Assembly: GCF_000170835.1 (NCBI RefSeq)
Contig: NZ_ABCP01000010.1
Location: 1-64,000 of the forward strand
Origin: Marinobacter algicola DG893
GTDB taxonomy: Bacteria; Pseudomonadota; Gammaproteobacteria; Pseudomonadales; Oleiphilaceae
Reading direction: 5' to 3'
DNA: 64,000 bases
How positions within the stretch are numbered: the first letter of the stretch is position 1; each line of letters opens with the position of its first letter. The notes under the pieces were generated by a model. It did not search any database and was not told the DNA's origin. It saw only the letters and a program-made list of their open reading frames with translations. Below are positions 24,817-55,046 of the stretch, piece after piece. A program made the translations under genes and the position numbers.

Positions 24817-24993
24817 ATGTATATCTACCGTCTGGTCTTCCTTCTGGTTCTGGCCATCTACATATTCTCTCCCAACATTCTTGACTGGTGGACGTCGCCA
24901 GGGAATGCCTGGTACAGCCCCTACGTCATCTGGGCCGGCCTGATTGCCATCGGCTTCTGGCTGGAATGGCGACGGGATCCCAATGAGTTTTAG
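24817..24993 (+). CDS. Small membrane protein overlapping cbrA (CbrX-like position)
   Basis: A 58-residue protein starting MYIYRLVFLLVLAIYIFSP with two hydrophobic segments and a charged end [11 protein letters not shown]. Its stop codon region overlaps the cbrA start (ATG 24983), so translation of the two is likely coupled. A small coding frame upstream of and overlapping cbrA, called CbrX, is known in Pseudomonas; position and size agree, but homology was not tested. A slightly longer GTG start at 24799 is possible. Confidence 0.7.
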   Translation: MYIYRLVFLLVLAIYIFSPNILDWWTSPGNAWYSPYVIWAGLIAIGFWLEWRRDPNEF

Positions 24994-27943
24994 CGCCCCC
25001 GGCCTGTTACTGGCCAGCCTGTTGTATCTGGTTCTGCTCTTCGGCATTGCGTGGGTGACCGAAAAAGGCGCGGTGCCCCGCAGCTGGATCAGGCATCCCC
25101 TGGTCTACACGCTTAGCCTTGGTGTCTACGCGGGTATCTGGGCCGTGTACGCCGCGGTGGGCATGGCCGCTGAATCGGGGTTTGGCTTCCTGGCCTACTA
25201 CCTGGGCATCAGTGGCGCCTTTCTGCTGGCACCGGTTCTACTCAACCCGGTGATGCGGATTGGCCGCGCTTACCAGCTCACCTCCCTTGCCGACCTGTTC
25301 GCCTACCGGTATCGAAGCCAGTGGGCGGGCACGCTGGTAACCATCTGTTCCGGCACCGCCATACTGGCCTTGCTGAGCATGCAGATCCAGGCGGTATCCA
25401 CGTCTGCCAGCCTGCTGGCGCCAGACACGTCCCCCCAACTCATAAGTGTGCTTTTCAGCATTATCGTGGTCCTGTTTGCCATGCTGTTCGGCACTCGTCG
25501 CAGCCAGGGTTCCGAGAACCACCAGGGCCTGGTGCTGGCCATTGCTTTCGACTCACTGGTAAAACTCTTCTCCCTGCTGATCCTTGGCGGAGTCATTCTG
25601 TTTGGCGTATTCGATGGCATGGCGGGGCTGGAAACCTGGCTGTCGGACCAGAGCACTCCGGTGAGCACCATGACCATGAGCATCGATGACGGCAGTTGGC
25701 GTGCCTTGATGCTGATGTCCTTCGCCGGAGCCCTGGTGCTGCCCCACATGTACCACATGACGTTCAGTGAAAATCCATCGCCCAAGGCGCTGGCAAAGGC
25801 CAGTTGGGGCCTCCCCCTGTATCTGCTGCTGCTCGGCCTGCCAATCCCGCTGATTCTCTGGGGTGGCCAGGCGCTGGCTGCCACCACGGGACCGAACTTC
25901 TACGCCATCGGCACCGCCCAGGCCCTCGGCAGCCCGGCACTAACACTGATGATGTACATTGCCGGGCTGTCCGCCGCCAGCGGCCTGATGATCGTCAGCA
26001 CCCTGGCTCTGGCGGGCATGGTGCTGAACCACGCAGTACTTCCATTACGAACCCCCAAGGACCACGGCGACATCTACCACTGGCTGAAATGGGTCAAGCG
26101 CCTGCTCATCGCGGCCATCATCTTCGCTGCGCTGCTGTTCCATGAAACCCTGGGCAAAAACCTGGACCTGTCGATCCTCGGCGCCATTTCACTATCAGGT
26201 ATGCTCCAGTTACTTCCCGGCGCCCTTGGCGTCATCTATTGGCCTGAGGGCAATCGCCGCGGCCTCATCGCCGGGCTGGTCTCCGGCCTGGTCATTTGGG
26301 TGGTTACCCTGGTGCTGCCGTTCTCCCATACAGCCAACCTGCTGGATTTCATCGGTGCGCCCCTGGTACCGGACTACAGCAACTGGCACATCTTCACCTT
26401 CGTTAGCCTGACGGTGAATGTCACCATATTCACCCTGATTTCAGTACTGAGCACCAGTTCCGCCGAAGAGGCCGGGGCTGCTCAGGCATGTTCCCTGGGC
26501 GCGCTTTCCCGCCCCCAGCGCAGGGAGTTGCTGGCAACTTCGTCCGCGGACTTCACCCGTCAGCTTGCGGTGCCGTTAGGGCTGGGAGTTGCAAGGCGGG
26601 AGGTGGATAAAGCCCTTACCCAACTCAAGCTGCCGAACGTGGAATACCGGCCTTACCAACTTCGGCGCTTACGCGACCGCGTGGAGGTGAATCTTTCAGG
26701 CCTGCTGGGCCCGGCTGTCGCTCGTGATCTTGTCAAACGACATCTGGGCTACAAACCCATGGCAAGTGGCGGCACCGCACAGGATATCCGCTATGTCGAA
26801 CGGGCCCTCGGGGATTACCAGAACCGCCTGACCGGTCTCGCAGGGGAATTGGACAACCTGCGCCGCCACTATCGCCAGACCCTTCAGAACCTTCCGATTC
26901 CCGCCTGTTCTGTCGGTGAAGACGGCGAAATACTCATGTGGAACAACGCCATGGAAGCCCTTACCGGCATTACGGCCGACGATGTGGTGGGTGCCCGACT
27001 GATGGCCCTGCCCGAGCACTGGCACCTGCTGCTGGACGACTTCAACAGCGGTGAGGATCTGCACCGCTACAAGCACCGGCTGGACCTGAAAGGCCGCCCC
27101 CACTGGCTTAACCTGCACAAGGCAGCCTTGAGCGGCCCCGATCACACCGAGGGTGGCAGCATCATCCTGGTGGAAGATCAGACCGAAACCCGCCTGCTGG
27201 AAGACGAACTGATGCACAGCGAGCGGCTGGCCTCTGTGGGCCGGCTCGCTGCGGGTGTCGCCCACGAAATCGGTAATCCGGTCACCGGCATTTCTTCCCT
27301 GGCCCAGAACCTGAAGCTGGAAACCGACGACCCGGACATTTTGTCCACGGCGGATCAGATCCAACAGCAGACCCGGCGGATTTCCACCATCCTGCAGTCG
27401 CTGATGAACTTTGCCCGCACCGGGAACCATGCCCACGCCAACCGCTACGAACCGGTCGATATAAAGCGTTGCGTGGACGAGTCCATCAACCTGCTCTCCC
27501 TCAGTGACAAGGGCATGGGCATTCATTACCGCAACGAATGCCCGGCTGATCTGACCATTCTGGGGGATGAGCAGCGGCTGGTGCAGGTGTTTATCAACCT
27601 GTTGGCCAACGCCCGGGACGCCTCCCCCATTGGCGGAGAAGTGCGTATCAGTGGAAACCGCGACGGCTACTCCGCTATTATCGAGGTCACCGATGACGGC
27701 TCCGGCATACCGAAAGACCAGTTGGACCACATCTTCGAGCCTTTTTACACCACCAAGGCCCCCAACAAAGGCACAGGCCTGGGCTTGTCGCTGGTGTACA
27801 GCATCATTGAAGAACACTACGGCAACATTCAAGTGGACAGCCCGGCTGATTCTGGTACTCGCCGGGGCACCTGTGTGCGCATGAGGTTGCCGGCCTACGA
27901 GCCGGACACCGGTACCACCATCAGCCAGAACGAAGGGTCGTAA
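24983..27943 (+). CDS. cbrA: Sensor histidine kinase CbrA with solute:sodium symporter domain
   Basis: Membrane kinase of the CbrAB system, which adjusts use of carbon sources. The ATG at 24983 gives 986 residues. About 13 membrane helices of the SLC5/SSS type occupy residues 1-500, followed by a linker domain, a PAS domain (about 630-735), the phosphoacceptor helix with [12 protein letters not shown] (His near residue 760) and the HATPase with [17 protein letters not shown] and [11 protein letters not shown]. The SSS domain may sense or carry a substrate. cbrB follows after 7 bases. Confidence 0.93.
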
Positions 27944-27950
27944 ACGCATT

Positions 27951-29360
27951 ATGCCTCGCATTCTGATTGTAGAAGACGAAGAGATCATCCGTTCAGCGGT
28001 TCGCAAACTGCTTCAGCATGCCGGTTATGAGGTTGCCGATGCCGGCTCCGTGGAAGAAGCCGAAGACAAACACGACCCCAGCGAATTTGACCTGATCATC
28101 TCCGACCTTCGGCTGCCTGGCGCAGCCGGAACGGAACTGATACGGCGCGCACCAGACACCCCGGTGCTGATCATGACCAGCTATGCCAGCCTCCGCTCCG
28201 CCGTGGACTCTATGAAGATGGGCGCCGTGGAGTACATTGCAAAACCCTTCGACCACGACGAAATGCTGGAAGCCGTCGAGGGCATTCTCGCCAGACAGCC
28301 GCAGGTTTCTTCCTCTGCTGCCCAGCCATCGTCGGACCGGGCAGATGCGGGTTCACCGGACAGCGACCCGGCCAGCATTATGTTTGGTCACTGCGATGCC
28401 ATGCAGAAGGTGTTCACCTTGATACGCAAAGTGGCACCAACGGAAACCACCGTACTGATCCAGGGCGAATCCGGAACTGGCAAGGAACTGGCCGCTCGCG
28501 CACTTCATTTGATGAGCCCCCGAGCCGCCAGACCTCTTATTTCCGTAAACTGCGCCGCCATCCCGGAAAGCCTGATTGAGTCGGAACTGTTCGGTCATGA
28601 AAAGGGGTCGTTTACCGGAGCTGTATCGGCCCGGACCGGCCTGATCGAAGCAGCCGACGGCGGCAGCCTGTTTCTGGACGAAATCGGCGAACTACCCGCT
28701 GAGGCCCAGGCCCGCCTGCTACGGGTGTTGCAGGAAGGCGAGATTCGCAAGGTGGGCTCCACCCAGAGCCGCCAGGTAGACGTACGCATGATTGCCGCCA
28801 CCCACCGCAACCTGAAGGCCATGACGCGAACCGGTGATTTCCGCGAAGACCTGTTTTACCGACTGAACGTCATGCAGGTTCGCATACCGCCGCTGCGGGA
28901 AAGGCAATCGGATATCCTTGGCCTGGCCCAGCGATTCCTGCAACGCCAGGGCGAAAAGATGAGCAAGCCCGGCCTGAACCTGACACCAGAAGCCATGCGT
29001 GCGCTGGAACGACACCGCTGGCCCGGCAACGTCAGGGAGCTGGAAAATGCCATCGAACGTGCCACGATCCTCTGCGACAGCGACCTGATCACTCCGTCCT
29101 TGCTGGACCTGGACGGTGAAGGCGGCGACGTCAACATTCCCGAAACCCTGGTGGACGGCAACAACGAGCAGGCGCCCTCCCGGGAGGCCGAAGCCACCAG
29201 TGATCTCTCCCTTGAGGATTATTTCCAACACTTTGTGCTGGAGAACCAGGACCGCATGAGTGAAACCGAGCTGGCCCAAAAGCTGGGAATCAGCCGTAAG
29301 TCGCTGTGGGAGCGGCGGCAACGTCTGGGCATCCCACGGAAGAAAAGTTCGGGGAACTGA
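27951..29360 (+). CDS. cbrB: Sigma-54 dependent response regulator CbrB
   Basis: NtrC-family activator partnered with CbrA. The 469-residue protein has a receiver domain (phosphoacceptor Asp near residue 52 in [18 protein letters not shown] with the conserved Lys), an AAA+ domain with GESGTGKE (about 172), the sigma-54 contact loop GSFTGA (Ser where GAFTGA has Ala), and a C-terminal Fis-type HTH ([21 protein letters not shown]). Downstream lie the inverted repeats and sigma-54 promoter expected for its main target, a CrcZ-type RNA. Confidence 0.95.
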
Positions 29361-29389: not shown

Positions 29390-29479
29390 TGTTACCGGAA
29401 AGTGTGAACCTGCGCTCAGTTGTTACCCTGTGTTCCTGACGGTAACACCCCAGATCTAAAAAACGCGACCTCAGTAACA
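29390..29479 (+). promoter_or_regulatory. Putative CbrB binding sites (TGTTACC / GGTAACA inverted repeats)
   Basis: Four half-sites are seen: TGTTACC at 29390-29396 and 29421-29427, GGTAACA at 29441-29447 and AGTAACA at 29473-29479. The middle pair forms a perfect 7-base inverted repeat with a 13-base spacer. They sit 75-165 bases upstream of the sigma-54 promoter, the normal enhancer distance. Assignment to CbrB is inferred from its adjacent gene and my memory of TGTTAC/GTAACA-type sites in Pseudomonas. Confidence 0.6.
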
Positions 29480-29553
29480 CTTGAGTCTTACGGCCCACCT
29501 TCTCAGATAGATCGAAAATACTAACCTGCTGTTAATAAAGAATTTTATAAAAC

Positions 29554-29569
29554 TGGCACACAGACTGCA
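29554..29569 (+). promoter_or_regulatory. Sigma-54 (-24/-12) promoter of the CrcZ-like RNA
   Basis: TGGCAC at -24 and TGCA at -12 have the invariant GG (29555-29556) and GC (29567-29568) separated by exactly 10 bases. Transcription would start near 29580, just before the CA-rich stretch. The downstream sequence has no coding frame, which supports a non-coding transcript. Confidence 0.75.
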
Positions 29570-29579
29570 CTCTATAGGG

Positions 29580-29961
29580 CGCACAACAACAAAAACAACA
29601 GTGACAACGCAGCGCCAACAACAAGAACAAAAAGCTGCAGAAGACGTTCGGTAACAAAAACAAAAACAGAACGTGAGCGAACTGAGTGTTTTGGGTACTT
29701 TGCTTTTTAGTGGTCCCACGGCACGTGTGAGTTGTAGATGTAGAGAAGAATCGTCTTCCAGGCGGCACTGCATTTACCCAATGACTCGCCCGATGTCTCT
29801 GACTGCTCTGTGTATTCAAAGCTTTCCGTTTGCACTCCTGAAATCCCTAAGTTGGGGATTAACAGTGGGGTAGAAAAACGAAGAAAAATCCCGGTAAAAA
29901 CAAAAACAATGCAGATCGTCAACGCTTTCAGGGCGGGTTCGTGTAAACGAATCCGCCTTTT
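29580..29961 (+). ncRNA. crcZ: CrcZ-like Hfq/Crc-sequestering small RNA
   Basis: In Pseudomonas, CrcZ is a roughly 400-nt RNA between cbrB and pcnB, driven by CbrB and sigma-54, that titrates Hfq/Crc through A-rich CA motifs of the form AANAANAA. Here the same gap, a sigma-54 promoter and a terminator bound a 382-nt unit. It has dense motifs at 29584-29600, 29615-29635, 29652-29672 and again at 29893-29910, made of AACAACAA, AACAAGAACAA and AACAAAAACAA. No ORF in this stretch looks like a protein. The identity is inferred from synteny and motif content, not from alignment. Confidence 0.75.
29932..29961 (+). terminator. Intrinsic terminator of the CrcZ-like RNA
   Basis: Ten-base stem with one G-T wobble (GGCGGGTTCG / CGAATCCGCC), 6-base loop, then TTTT. 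It ends 143 bases before pcnB. Confidence 0.88.
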
Positions 29962-30104
29962 GATTATCTGGCCCAACGGTTTTTTCAACCTGGCCATTTC
30001 CGCCCTTCCCTCGGTTGTTTTCACCAGCTTATGTCGCCAAACGTGTGCAAATCCCGCCCAAACCGTTAAACTCTCGCTTTTGCTCAGCGCAATAACGGAA
30101 TTCA

Positions 30105-31448
30105 ATGCTTAAACGACTATTGTCATACGTGTCAGGAAACGGGAAGAAAAAAGCCCGAACCTATCAACGTCAGGAAATCCCACGAGACCAGCATAACGTC
30201 TCCCGCTCGTTCATCAGCGAGCCTGCCAAGAAAGTGCTCAGTCGGCTGAATAACGCGGGCTATGAAGCGTATCTGGTGGGTGGCGGCGTTCGCGACATTC
30301 TGCTTGGCGGCAAGCCCAAGGATTTTGACATCGCCACCAATGCCACGCCAGAAGAAGTGCATGACCTGTTCCGCAACTCCAGGCTGATTGGCCGCCGCTT
30401 CCGCATAGTTCACGTTCTATTCGGTCGGGAAGTTATTGAGGTCACCACCTTCCGTGGAAACGCGGCGGAAGCTGAAGCGGATGACGACGACGATGACCGC
30501 AGGACCAGCGAGCACGGCCTGCTGCTGCGGGATAACGTCTACGGCAACCTGGAAGAAGACGCCCTACGCCGTGATTTCACCGTGAATGCCCTCTATTACT
30601 GCATCCGCGATTTCACCGTGGTGGATTTTGCCAACGGCATTGAAGACCTGGAAAATCGTCAAATGCGCCTGATTGGCGACCCGGAAACCCGCTACCGGGA
30701 AGACCCGGTGCGCATGCTTCGCGCCGTGCGCTTCGCCGCCAAACTGGGCTTTGATATTGAGCCCGACACCGAAGCTCCAATCCGGGAACTGGCACCGCTA
30801 CTGACCCACATTCCGCCAGCTCGCCTGTTCGAGGAGGTGCTCAAGCTGTTCTCCGCCGGCTATGGTGAAGCCACTTACGACCTGCTCAGCGAATACAACC
30901 TGCTGGCGCCTTTGTTCCCGGAGACGGTACAGGCCATCAACAATGGCGAGCCGGATGAACTGATCCGCAAGGCCCTTCGCAATACCGATGCCCGCATCGC
31001 CCAGGGCAAGTCGGTAACACCCTACTTCCTGTTTGCCGCCATGCTCTGGCCGGCCCTGCAGGCGGAATGGCGGAAACGCCAGGATAATGGCGAGCCGGTA
31101 CAACCGGCATTGCATATGGCCATCGCCAAGGTGATCGGCCGACAGGTTCAGGCAACCTCGATCCCCAAGCGCTTCTCCGGCCCTATGAAGGAAATCTGGG
31201 AATTACAGATGCGCCTGCCCCGTCGCCAGGGCAAGCGCGCCTTCGCCACCATGTCCCACCCCCGCTTCCGGGCCGCCTATGACTTCCTGCTGGTACGGGA
31301 AGCTTCCGGCGAAATCGAACCCGGGCTGGGCCAGTGGTGGACAGAGTTCCAGGAAACGGACGAGCGCGGCCAGGAACGCATGTTGACACAACTGGGCAGT
31401 GACGGCCCCAAGAAACGCCGCCGCAAGAAGCCCGCGAAAAAGGCCTGA
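30105..31448 (+). CDS. pcnB: Poly(A) polymerase I
   Basis: Adds 3' poly(A) tails that mark RNAs for decay. The 447-residue protein has the nucleotidyltransferase signature AYLVGGGVRDILLGGKPKDFDIATNATP (metal-binding Asp residues), RRDFTVNALYY and VDFANGIEDLENRQMRLIGDPETRYREDPVRMLRAVRFAAKLGF, and a Lys/Arg-rich C-terminus. Synteny cbrB-pcnB-folK-panB-panC is that of Pseudomonas. It starts at ATG 30105 and is followed by folK after 3 bases. Confidence 0.95.
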   Translation: MLKRLLSYVSGNGKKKARTYQRQEIPRDQHNVSRSFISEPAKKVLSRLNNAGYEAYLVGGGVRDILLGGKPKDFDIATNATPEEVHDLFRNSRLIGRRFRIVHVLFGREVIEVTTFRGNAAEAEADDDDDDRRTSEHGLLLRDNVYGNLEEDALRRDFTVNALYYCIRDFTVVDFANGIEDLENRQMRLIGDPETRYREDPVRMLRAVRFAAKLGFDIEPDTEAPIRELAPLLTHIPPARLFEEVLKLFSAGYGEATYDLLSEYNLLAPLFPETVQAINNGEPDELIRKALRNTDARIAQGKSVTPYFLFAAMLWPALQAEWRKRQDNGEPVQPALHMAIAKVIGRQVQATSIPKRFSGPMKEIWELQMRLPRRQGKRAFATMSHPRFRAAYDFLLVREASGEIEPGLGQWWTEFQETDERGQERMLTQLGSDGPKKRRRKKPAKKA

Positions 31449-53478: not shown

Positions 53479-54675
53479 TCACAGTATTTTATCAGACCGG
53501 CGCGCATCTCTTACCGCTAGAAAAATCGGCACACCAATCTGCGAGAACAGCGCCAGGACCCAAAGCCCGTTGCTGACAATCGACGGTACGAGGGGGTGAA
53601 CGGCTAGCACAACCAGCGCCATGACAATGCCGAACAGCCTCAGACCGGCGCTGTGGTAGTTGTCGGTGGCATCAGCCACAGTTCGACGCAGCGCCCATAG
53701 CGAAGCTAAAAAAACCGCAAGGCCGACAGAGCCAAGCGCGGCGTAGCCGGGCGGATAAGGCTCCCACAGGCCGACGTAGACTTCTCCGGCCAGCGCAACG
53801 CCAATCGTCACCGCACTCCACAAAATCACGATGTGAGCAAACCAGTATCTCAGCAGCACGGCACTGGTGCGGCTCTTCGGTTTTTCATTGCCGGCGCAGT
53901 CGAAATAAGTCCAGGCCAGCGCGAAGAGGGACAAGCCGCCCATGGTCACATTGAACAGCGTACCCGCGCTGACGCTGTAGACGCCCTTCTCGGCCAGCGT
54001 GACCACCAGCTTAAAGAAGCCTTCACCCAGCAAGATCAACATCAGAAGGCCGAAGCGCTCCGAGATGTGTCCGAGTTGAGGCACAAAGCGTTCGAAGCGG
54101 AGCGTGCCCACGCGCGGCAGCATGTACTGCAGCTGGATTGCTGCCACGCCGGCGGCAAAGACCCAGTAGGCGACCGGTGTGGGCAAAAAAGCCGACAGCG
54201 CGAACACCCCGGCCAATACGAAAAAATTCCGCGCCTGTTCCTGCGCCAGCGCATTGGTCGCGTTGTCGGTACAGCGCGCCCGCCAATAAAGATAGGCCGT
54301 CAGCGCCCGATTCAACGCATAGGCCAGCGCGAAATACGTCCAGCCTTCACCGCCCACGTCAGGAATCGCCGCCGCGACGGTCATCATCGTGACAATCTTA
54401 AGTGCCATCGCCACGCGATGCGGCATGTCCGTGGAGATATACAGCGAGTTATAGACCGAGCTGTCTGCCCAGGCATAGAAAATCGCCAGGAACAGTCCCG
54501 TAAACACCCAGAATCCTTGCCACCCCAGATGATGGGACAGGTAATTCCCCAGAATGAAAATTGTCACTACATGGACCAGATCGAAGAAAAGTTCCACCCA
54601 GTGCACGCGGTCGTGGGTTTCATCGACATCCATGTAATGGCGCGGTCGCCGCCAGAGAAGATCGCTAACTACCAT
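53479..54675 (-). CDS. Low temperature requirement A (LtrA) family membrane protein
   Basis: Named after a Listeria gene; molecular role unknown. The 398-residue protein has about ten membrane helices and the family N-terminus HDRVHWVELFFDLVHVVTIFILGNYLSHH with the conserved ELFFDLVFV-like motif. Its neighbours are a pseudogene and cassette remnants, so it stands alone. Base use is more GC-rich than the cassette genes on both sides. Confidence 0.85.
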   Translation of the reverse strand: MVVSDLLWRRPRHYMDVDETHDRVHWVELFFDLVHVVTIFILGNYLSHHLGWQGFWVFTGLFLAIFYAWADSSVYNSLYISTDMPHRVAMALKIVTMMTVAAAIPDVGGEGWTYFALAYALNRALTAYLYWRARCTDNATNALAQEQARNFFVLAGVFALSAFLPTPVAYWVFAAGVAAIQLQYMLPRVGTLRFERFVPQLGHISERFGLLMLILLGEGFFKLVVTLAEKGVYSVSAGTLFNVTMGGLSLFALAWTYFDCAGNEKPKSRTSAVLLRYWFAHIVILWSAVTIGVALAGEVYVGLWEPYPPGYAALGSVGLAVFLASLWALRRTVADATDNYHSAGLRLFGIVMALVVLAVHPLVPSIVSNGLWVLALFSQIGVPIFLAVRDARRSDKIL

Positions 54676-55046
54676 ACACTACGCCTTTTTCTTATTGTTC
54701 TGGCGGTGAATTATGCGCCCGCCAGGTCGATCGGTCTATCGTGCTACTCGCCGGGCCGCCACCGTGGCGGCAAGTATTAGCGCAGTCACAGCCACCATTA
54801 GATTCTCGGCCGCACTGTCCTCACTGATCAGTGCAGCCTGCATACCCGCGCCGAGTGATGCGCAGTTTACCGGTGAGTAGAGAAACCCCGCTCTTGATCT
54901 CCTCAACCAGTAGCGCTGCCAACCTCCTCTCGTCAACGATCTCGTAGTAAGCCCGGCTGATGCCAAATCGATAGAGATTCGCAGCAAGTCAGGCCACTAT
55001 AGCTCACTACGCAAAGCGAACATTCAGGCGGAGCGCAAAACCACAG
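54676..55046. other. Region with a truncated coding remnant and half an attC-like site
   Basis: On the minus strand a frame ending at 54821 reads YYEIVDERRLAALLVEEIKSG, then SGVSLLTGKLRITRR, protein-like but with no start, so it is the C-terminal remnant of a lost gene. A short overlapping frame follows (ending 54736). At 55003-55059 lies the left half of an attC-like site carrying GCAAAGCGAACATTC. Confidence 0.4.

Follow-up and report, generated by a model that had tools for sequence, protein, structure and literature searches.

What lies between cbrB and pcnB in Marinobacter algicola DG893, and is it a CrcZ? In Pseudomonas aeruginosa, CrcZ is an RNA of 407 nt with six A-rich stretches, which binds the distal face of Hfq and titrates Hfq off catabolic mRNAs (PMC4063720). 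CbrAB was described in 2018 as exclusive to the Pseudomonadaceae (PMC6296734), and a 2022 review says the same of CbrAB together with the cbrA-cbrB-crcZ synteny (PMC8871633). A search of open-access full text found no paper that pairs CrcZ with Marinobacter or Alcanivorax. In the window analysed here (the first 64,000 nucleotides of contig NZ_ABCP01000010.1), the cbrB-pcnB gap is occupied by a conserved, non-coding unit that is predicted to be transcribed:

24944-27943, + strand: cbrA, encoding a 999-aa transporter-like/PAS/HisKA/HATPase sensor kinase (Pfam PAS, HisKA, HATPase_c).
27951-29360, + strand: cbrB, encoding a sigma-54-dependent response regulator (Pfam Response_reg, Sigma54_activat).
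29581-29963, + strand: putative crcZ-type RNA, ~383 nt long (matched by model positions 1-398 of RF01675 with 50.9 bits; 82% mean column identity and sharp ends in 25 congeners).
30105-31448, + strand: pcnB, the downstream neighbour (TIGR01942, above cut-off).

The synteny is exactly that of Pseudomonas-type loci, as a first-pass annotation of this DNA had recognized; the limits that it proposed for the RNA (29580-29961) are here refined slightly, to about 29581-29963. The unit has a predicted promoter and terminator of its own, and putative binding sites for CbrB lie upstream:

29390-29395, + strand: putative CbrB half-site TGTTAC, an extra upstream copy and an exact P. putida forward subsite.
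29421-29426, + strand: putative CbrB half-site F1, TGTTAC, at -133 from the sigma-54 site; position conserved in the genus.
29442-29447, + strand: putative CbrB half-site R1, GTAACA, at -112; position conserved in the genus.
29474-29479, + strand: putative CbrB half-site R2, GTAACA, at -80; position conserved in the genus.
29554-29568, + strand: sigma-54 promoter TGGCAC-N5-CTGC, TGGCACACAGACTGC, the sole such site in 64 kb and conserved in the genus.
29930-29966, + strand: intrinsic terminator, a 13-pair stem (29930-29959) followed by TTGATTATCT.

Bare GG-N10-GC, the pattern by which the promoter had originally been picked out, occurs 394 times in the window and is therefore uninformative; the site itself stands, as the one occurrence of TGGCAC-N5-YTGC in the 64-kb window. 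The CbrB subsites TGTTAC/GTAACA were defined in P. putida (PMC6296734), and the four perfect copies between 29390 and 29479, which the first-pass annotation missed, are clustered more densely than any others in the 64 kb. Most congeners share a fourth half-site at -57 (29497 in the window) that the window's clade lacks, having the extra TGTTAC at -164 (29390) instead. The terminator had been described with a stem of 10 bp; it is present, with 13 pairs, and is kept as CCTTTTGATT in 25/25 congeners, whose alignment has GCAC at its start and CCTTTTGATT at its end.

At least four clusters of CA motifs had been noted within these limits, and there are five. The segment 29580-29961 contains 14 copies of AANAANAA on the + strand and 0 on the - strand; 2000 dinucleotide-shuffled versions of it average 1.7 copies (sd 1.6), and the highest count among them is 11, so that none reaches 14. 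The clusters are distributed over the predicted fold as follows:

29585-29598, + strand: CA cluster 1, in the unpaired 5' end.
29609-29638, + strand: hairpin GCAGC/GCTGC whose loop displays CA cluster 2 (29617-29633); 98% of cells are paired and one pair is compensatory.
29644-29674, + strand: hairpin ACGTTC/GAACGT presenting CA cluster 3 (29653-29666); compensatory changes in 3/6 pairs.
29677-29833, + strand: long, imperfect hairpin at the centre of the RNA that is not A-rich; its basal helix has 20 pairs, of which 16 are invariant in 25 species.
29867-29894, + strand: hairpin of the consensus fold presenting CA cluster 4 (29881-29888).
29896-29909, + strand: CA cluster 5, single-stranded.

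The mean unpaired probability of CA nucleotides is 0.95, as against 0.34 elsewhere in the RNA, and the predicted fold has a structure z of -2.6. Double changes occur at 21 of the 95 pairs of the consensus fold, versus 7.5 in shuffles, which are uncorrected for relatedness, and 5-10 in slid controls, which correct for it. The - strand does have ORFs of 95-132 aa, and one might suppose that the segment is coding (antisense ORF 29707-30105 or 29471-29773) or is mere low-complexity A-rich sequence. Indels of 1, 2 and 4 nt in this region among congeners argue that the antisense ORFs are non-coding; with the stem covariation and with strand-specific motifs in 103/103 loci (see below), a coding or low-complexity origin deserves next to no credence. 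The central hairpin is the least variable part of the RNA, yet it contains no Hfq motif; a second function for it, beyond simple motif display, is possible.

Repeated protein-binding motifs presented by hairpins are also the general architecture of CsrB/RsmZ-type RNAs, which would make RsmA/CsrA, and not Hfq, the titrated protein. Those RNAs bind CsrA/RsmA through GGA, however, whereas the 383 nt of the window RNA contain one GGA, no ANGGA and no multiple GGA in loops, and A-R-N repeats suit the distal site of Hfq. Titration of RsmA/CsrA is thus exceedingly improbable, and a CrcZ-type RNA directed at Hfq is the preferred reading.

CrcZ (RF01675) is in fact the top Rfam match, from end to end (29586-29998; whole-genome E 4.7e-12), so the covariance search bears out the CrcZ-like identity first proposed, at a score of 50.9 bits that falls short of the 95-bit gathering cut-off. 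A search at that cut-off gives no match in the window, and a permissive search is needed to find the RNA. The window's family as a whole behaves in the same way: RF01675 matches 72/81 of its genomes and 0 reach the cut-off. Genomes of family f20, which we take to be the Pseudomonadaceae, mostly score 200-368 bits (main loci >200). The cut-off hides nearly all CrcZ members outside the Pseudomonadaceae. A nucleotide HMM built from f20 crcZ detects the window RNA at E 7.6e-12. When all CA motifs are masked, its only match in the window is the central core (29676-29860), and that match is weak (E 0.059); the CA-masked core matches intermediate genera, which bridge the window RNA and f20 crcZ, at E 1e-6 to 1e-40. 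The likeness to CrcZ therefore appears not to be a matter of A-richness alone.

The window RNA has in common with Pseudomonas CrcZ its position and strand in cbrB-crcZ-pcnB, CbrB half-sites, a sigma-54 promoter, a similar length, A-rich motifs in loops, a probably related central core and a terminator. It differs in its score (50.9 bits versus >200 in the main f20 loci), in having five A-rich stretches rather than six, and in its half-site spacing (F1-R1 21, R1-R2 32). Taken as a sequence-based assignment, it is very probably a divergent CrcZ orthologue, activated by CbrB and sequestering Hfq(-Crc). Pseudomonas has the paralogues CrcY and CrcX, CbrB/sigma-54-dependent A-rich titrators that are unlinked; an RF01675 search of the window's genome found no further crcZ copies, and crcZ is single-copy there by this search. 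The genome's second RF01675 match (C104, E 0.014) is not crcZ but a stretch resembling a terminator.

All the protein partners of such an RNA are encoded. A 977-aa CbrA query matches PDB 10ed ('histidine kinase') over its residues 3-582, with E 9e-187, and full-length CbrA orthologues in f20 genomes are 52-53% identical. CbrB is 62-66% identical to Pseudomonas-type CbrB, with a nearly invariant C-terminal segment. The first-pass reading presupposed hfq and crc, and both genes are present in the genome. Crc (268 aa) is closest in the PDB to P. aeruginosa Crc (4jg3, 4.6e-69), whose sequence also occurs in the deposited complexes 6o1k-m. The crc gene adjoins pyrE in divergent orientation, as in Pseudomonas. 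Over residues 1-73, Hfq is all but identical to its P. aeruginosa counterpart, and the hfq gene lies in the order miaA-hfq-hflX (neighbour names are our reading of the ORFs).

Since every sequence prerequisite of a CrcZ-type mechanism is found in the window's genome, we infer that such a mechanism operates; in this scheme the transcription of the RNA, the binding of CbrB and of Hfq, the titration and the choice of targets are carried over from Pseudomonas. On poor carbon, the sensor kinase CbrA would activate CbrB, which, from the TGTTAC/GTAACA half-sites, would drive sigma-54 RNA polymerase at 29554. In the RNA of ~383 nt, five A-rich (A-R-N) stretches, looped out by hairpins or lying in single strands, would stay accessible; they would bind Hfq, partnered by Crc, at its distal face. 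This would draw Hfq away from uptake and catabolic mRNAs, whose ribosome-binding sites it had occupied, and let them be translated.

The genome has 138 occurrences of the pattern AACAANAA-N2..14-ATG, versus 81 of the reversed pattern, a modest enrichment at starts to which a general A-richness of start regions may contribute. A hand-picked subset of these sites with RBS-like spacing lies before genes for a LamB-type porin, a porin, TAXI-TRAP and PQQ-system binding proteins, a sugar-type ABC ATPase and two acyl-CoA ligases; that uptake and catabolic genes are the predicted targets is suggestive only. A CrcZ homologue might also have shifted its main job, titrating Hfq for biofilm or stress purposes or acting independently of Crc. 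The conservation of the central hairpin beyond the needs of simple motif display would fit such a shift, and P. aeruginosa CrcZ affects anoxic biofilms too, via Hfq (PMC5175159). The retention of crc and of the CbrB half-sites, and candidate targets of the uptake and catabolic kind, make a shifted role unlikely, and favour a CrcZ that serves carbon control. Within the window, the leader (54675-54699) of the ORF at 53479-54675 (- strand) has AACAATAAGAAAAA 18-24 nt before its ATG and is a possible Hfq/Crc target. At G000 C69:29163-29275, both members of a divergent pair (NMO-domain ORF L286; 243-aa ORF L285) have AACAANAA near the RBS.

How far does the arrangement extend? At a threshold of E <= 1e-130, CbrB orthologues are found in 289/391 genomes of the order (116/142 genera), and Crc-like proteins in 295/391. 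All 103 fetched loci in which cbrB is followed by pcnB, drawn from >20 families of the order, carry a CA-rich RNA. Sense CA motifs exceed antisense in every one (median 14 vs 0, minimum 5); TGGCAY-N6-TGC is present in 99/103 and at least one perfect CbrB half-site in 103/103. Most of these loci were found through the RNA itself and constitute a biased sample, but the 18 picked by CbrB alone also carry the RNA without exception (6-46 sense vs 0-3 antisense motifs); these include Gilvimarinus gilvus (31 motifs) and Dasania sp. (two tandem copies). A CbrB-alignment scan of contigs returned mostly unrelated AAA+ activators and only five true named CbrB loci (a gammaproteobacterial contig, Pseudomonas fildesensis, a Pseudomonadaceae MAG, Gilvimarinus gilvus and Dasania sp.). 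The presence of the RNA in 103/103 loci from >20 families contradicts, at the level of sequence, the restriction of CbrAB-CrcZ to the Pseudomonadaceae. The extension beyond the classic genus that was first proposed holds but does not go far enough: most of the order has the arrangement. The comparison supports a range for CrcZ much wider than published, with the window RNA as an addition to a known kind.

The signature of promoter plus motifs is found in 59/96 genomes in the order versus about 10/271 outside. Eighteen CbrB-like loci outside the order (L230-L248) have no adjoining pcnB and no CA-rich RNA downstream (<=3 motifs), though full-length CbrA is present in 3/3 tested genomes with such loci; cbrAB thus extends past the order, while the linked RNA marks the order itself. 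Nothing similar was found in E. coli. The CbrB-crcZ-pcnB module is probably ancestral to the whole order Pseudomonadales (in the GTDB sense), lost or rewired in places, and not an invention of the Pseudomonadaceae. If so, Hfq titration would be the default mode of carbon catabolite control in the order. Many of the families carrying the arrangement are probably marine, and Hfq-based catabolite control is now testable in environmental bacteria.

The same survey bears on whether the segment is a free RNA at all. Lying between two co-directional genes, it could be a cis-acting leader of pcnB or the 3' tail of cbrB, and in Pseudomonas crcZ does receive read-through from PcbrB (PMC8871633). Such an element would hardly need a sigma-54 promoter to itself or an invariant terminator placed 140 nt ahead of pcnB, nor would it be expected in tandem copies, as seen in several families, or beside pcnB with cbrB about 187 kb away, as in genomes of family f8. 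A cis-acting element is accordingly very unlikely, and a free, CrcZ-type RNA is retained.

Rewiring within the order, as far as gene arrangement tells, appears to have taken three forms: tandem crcZ, crcZ apart from cbrB, and, in family f26, an orphan CbrB without CbrA. Natural variants of this sort (copy number, missing CbrA, shorter RNAs) point to the essential parts of CrcZ. Tandem crcZ-like units, with CA-motif clusters and half-sites repeated, occupy the cbrB-pcnB gaps of L104, L212, L214 and L225 (2 in Dasania and L212, about 4 in L214, 3 in L225). In family f8 (L074-L076, L228, L329) the crcZ-like RNA lies beside pcnB and cbrAB is elsewhere (the distance of about 187 kb is that in G260), with no CA motifs 3' of cbrB. 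Family f26 has Crc and the order gluQRS-cbrB-RNA-pcnB (L324, 1054-2448 and 2560-2890; L325, on the reverse strand, 4111-2711 and about 2603-2300). CbrA was not found in its genomes, and its CrcZ-like RNA is apparently uncoupled from CbrA. The f26 CbrB shares 46% identity and its receiver is degenerate (active-site T and K lost); 3' of cbrB comes a sigma-54 site, then an RNA with 13-16 CA motifs.
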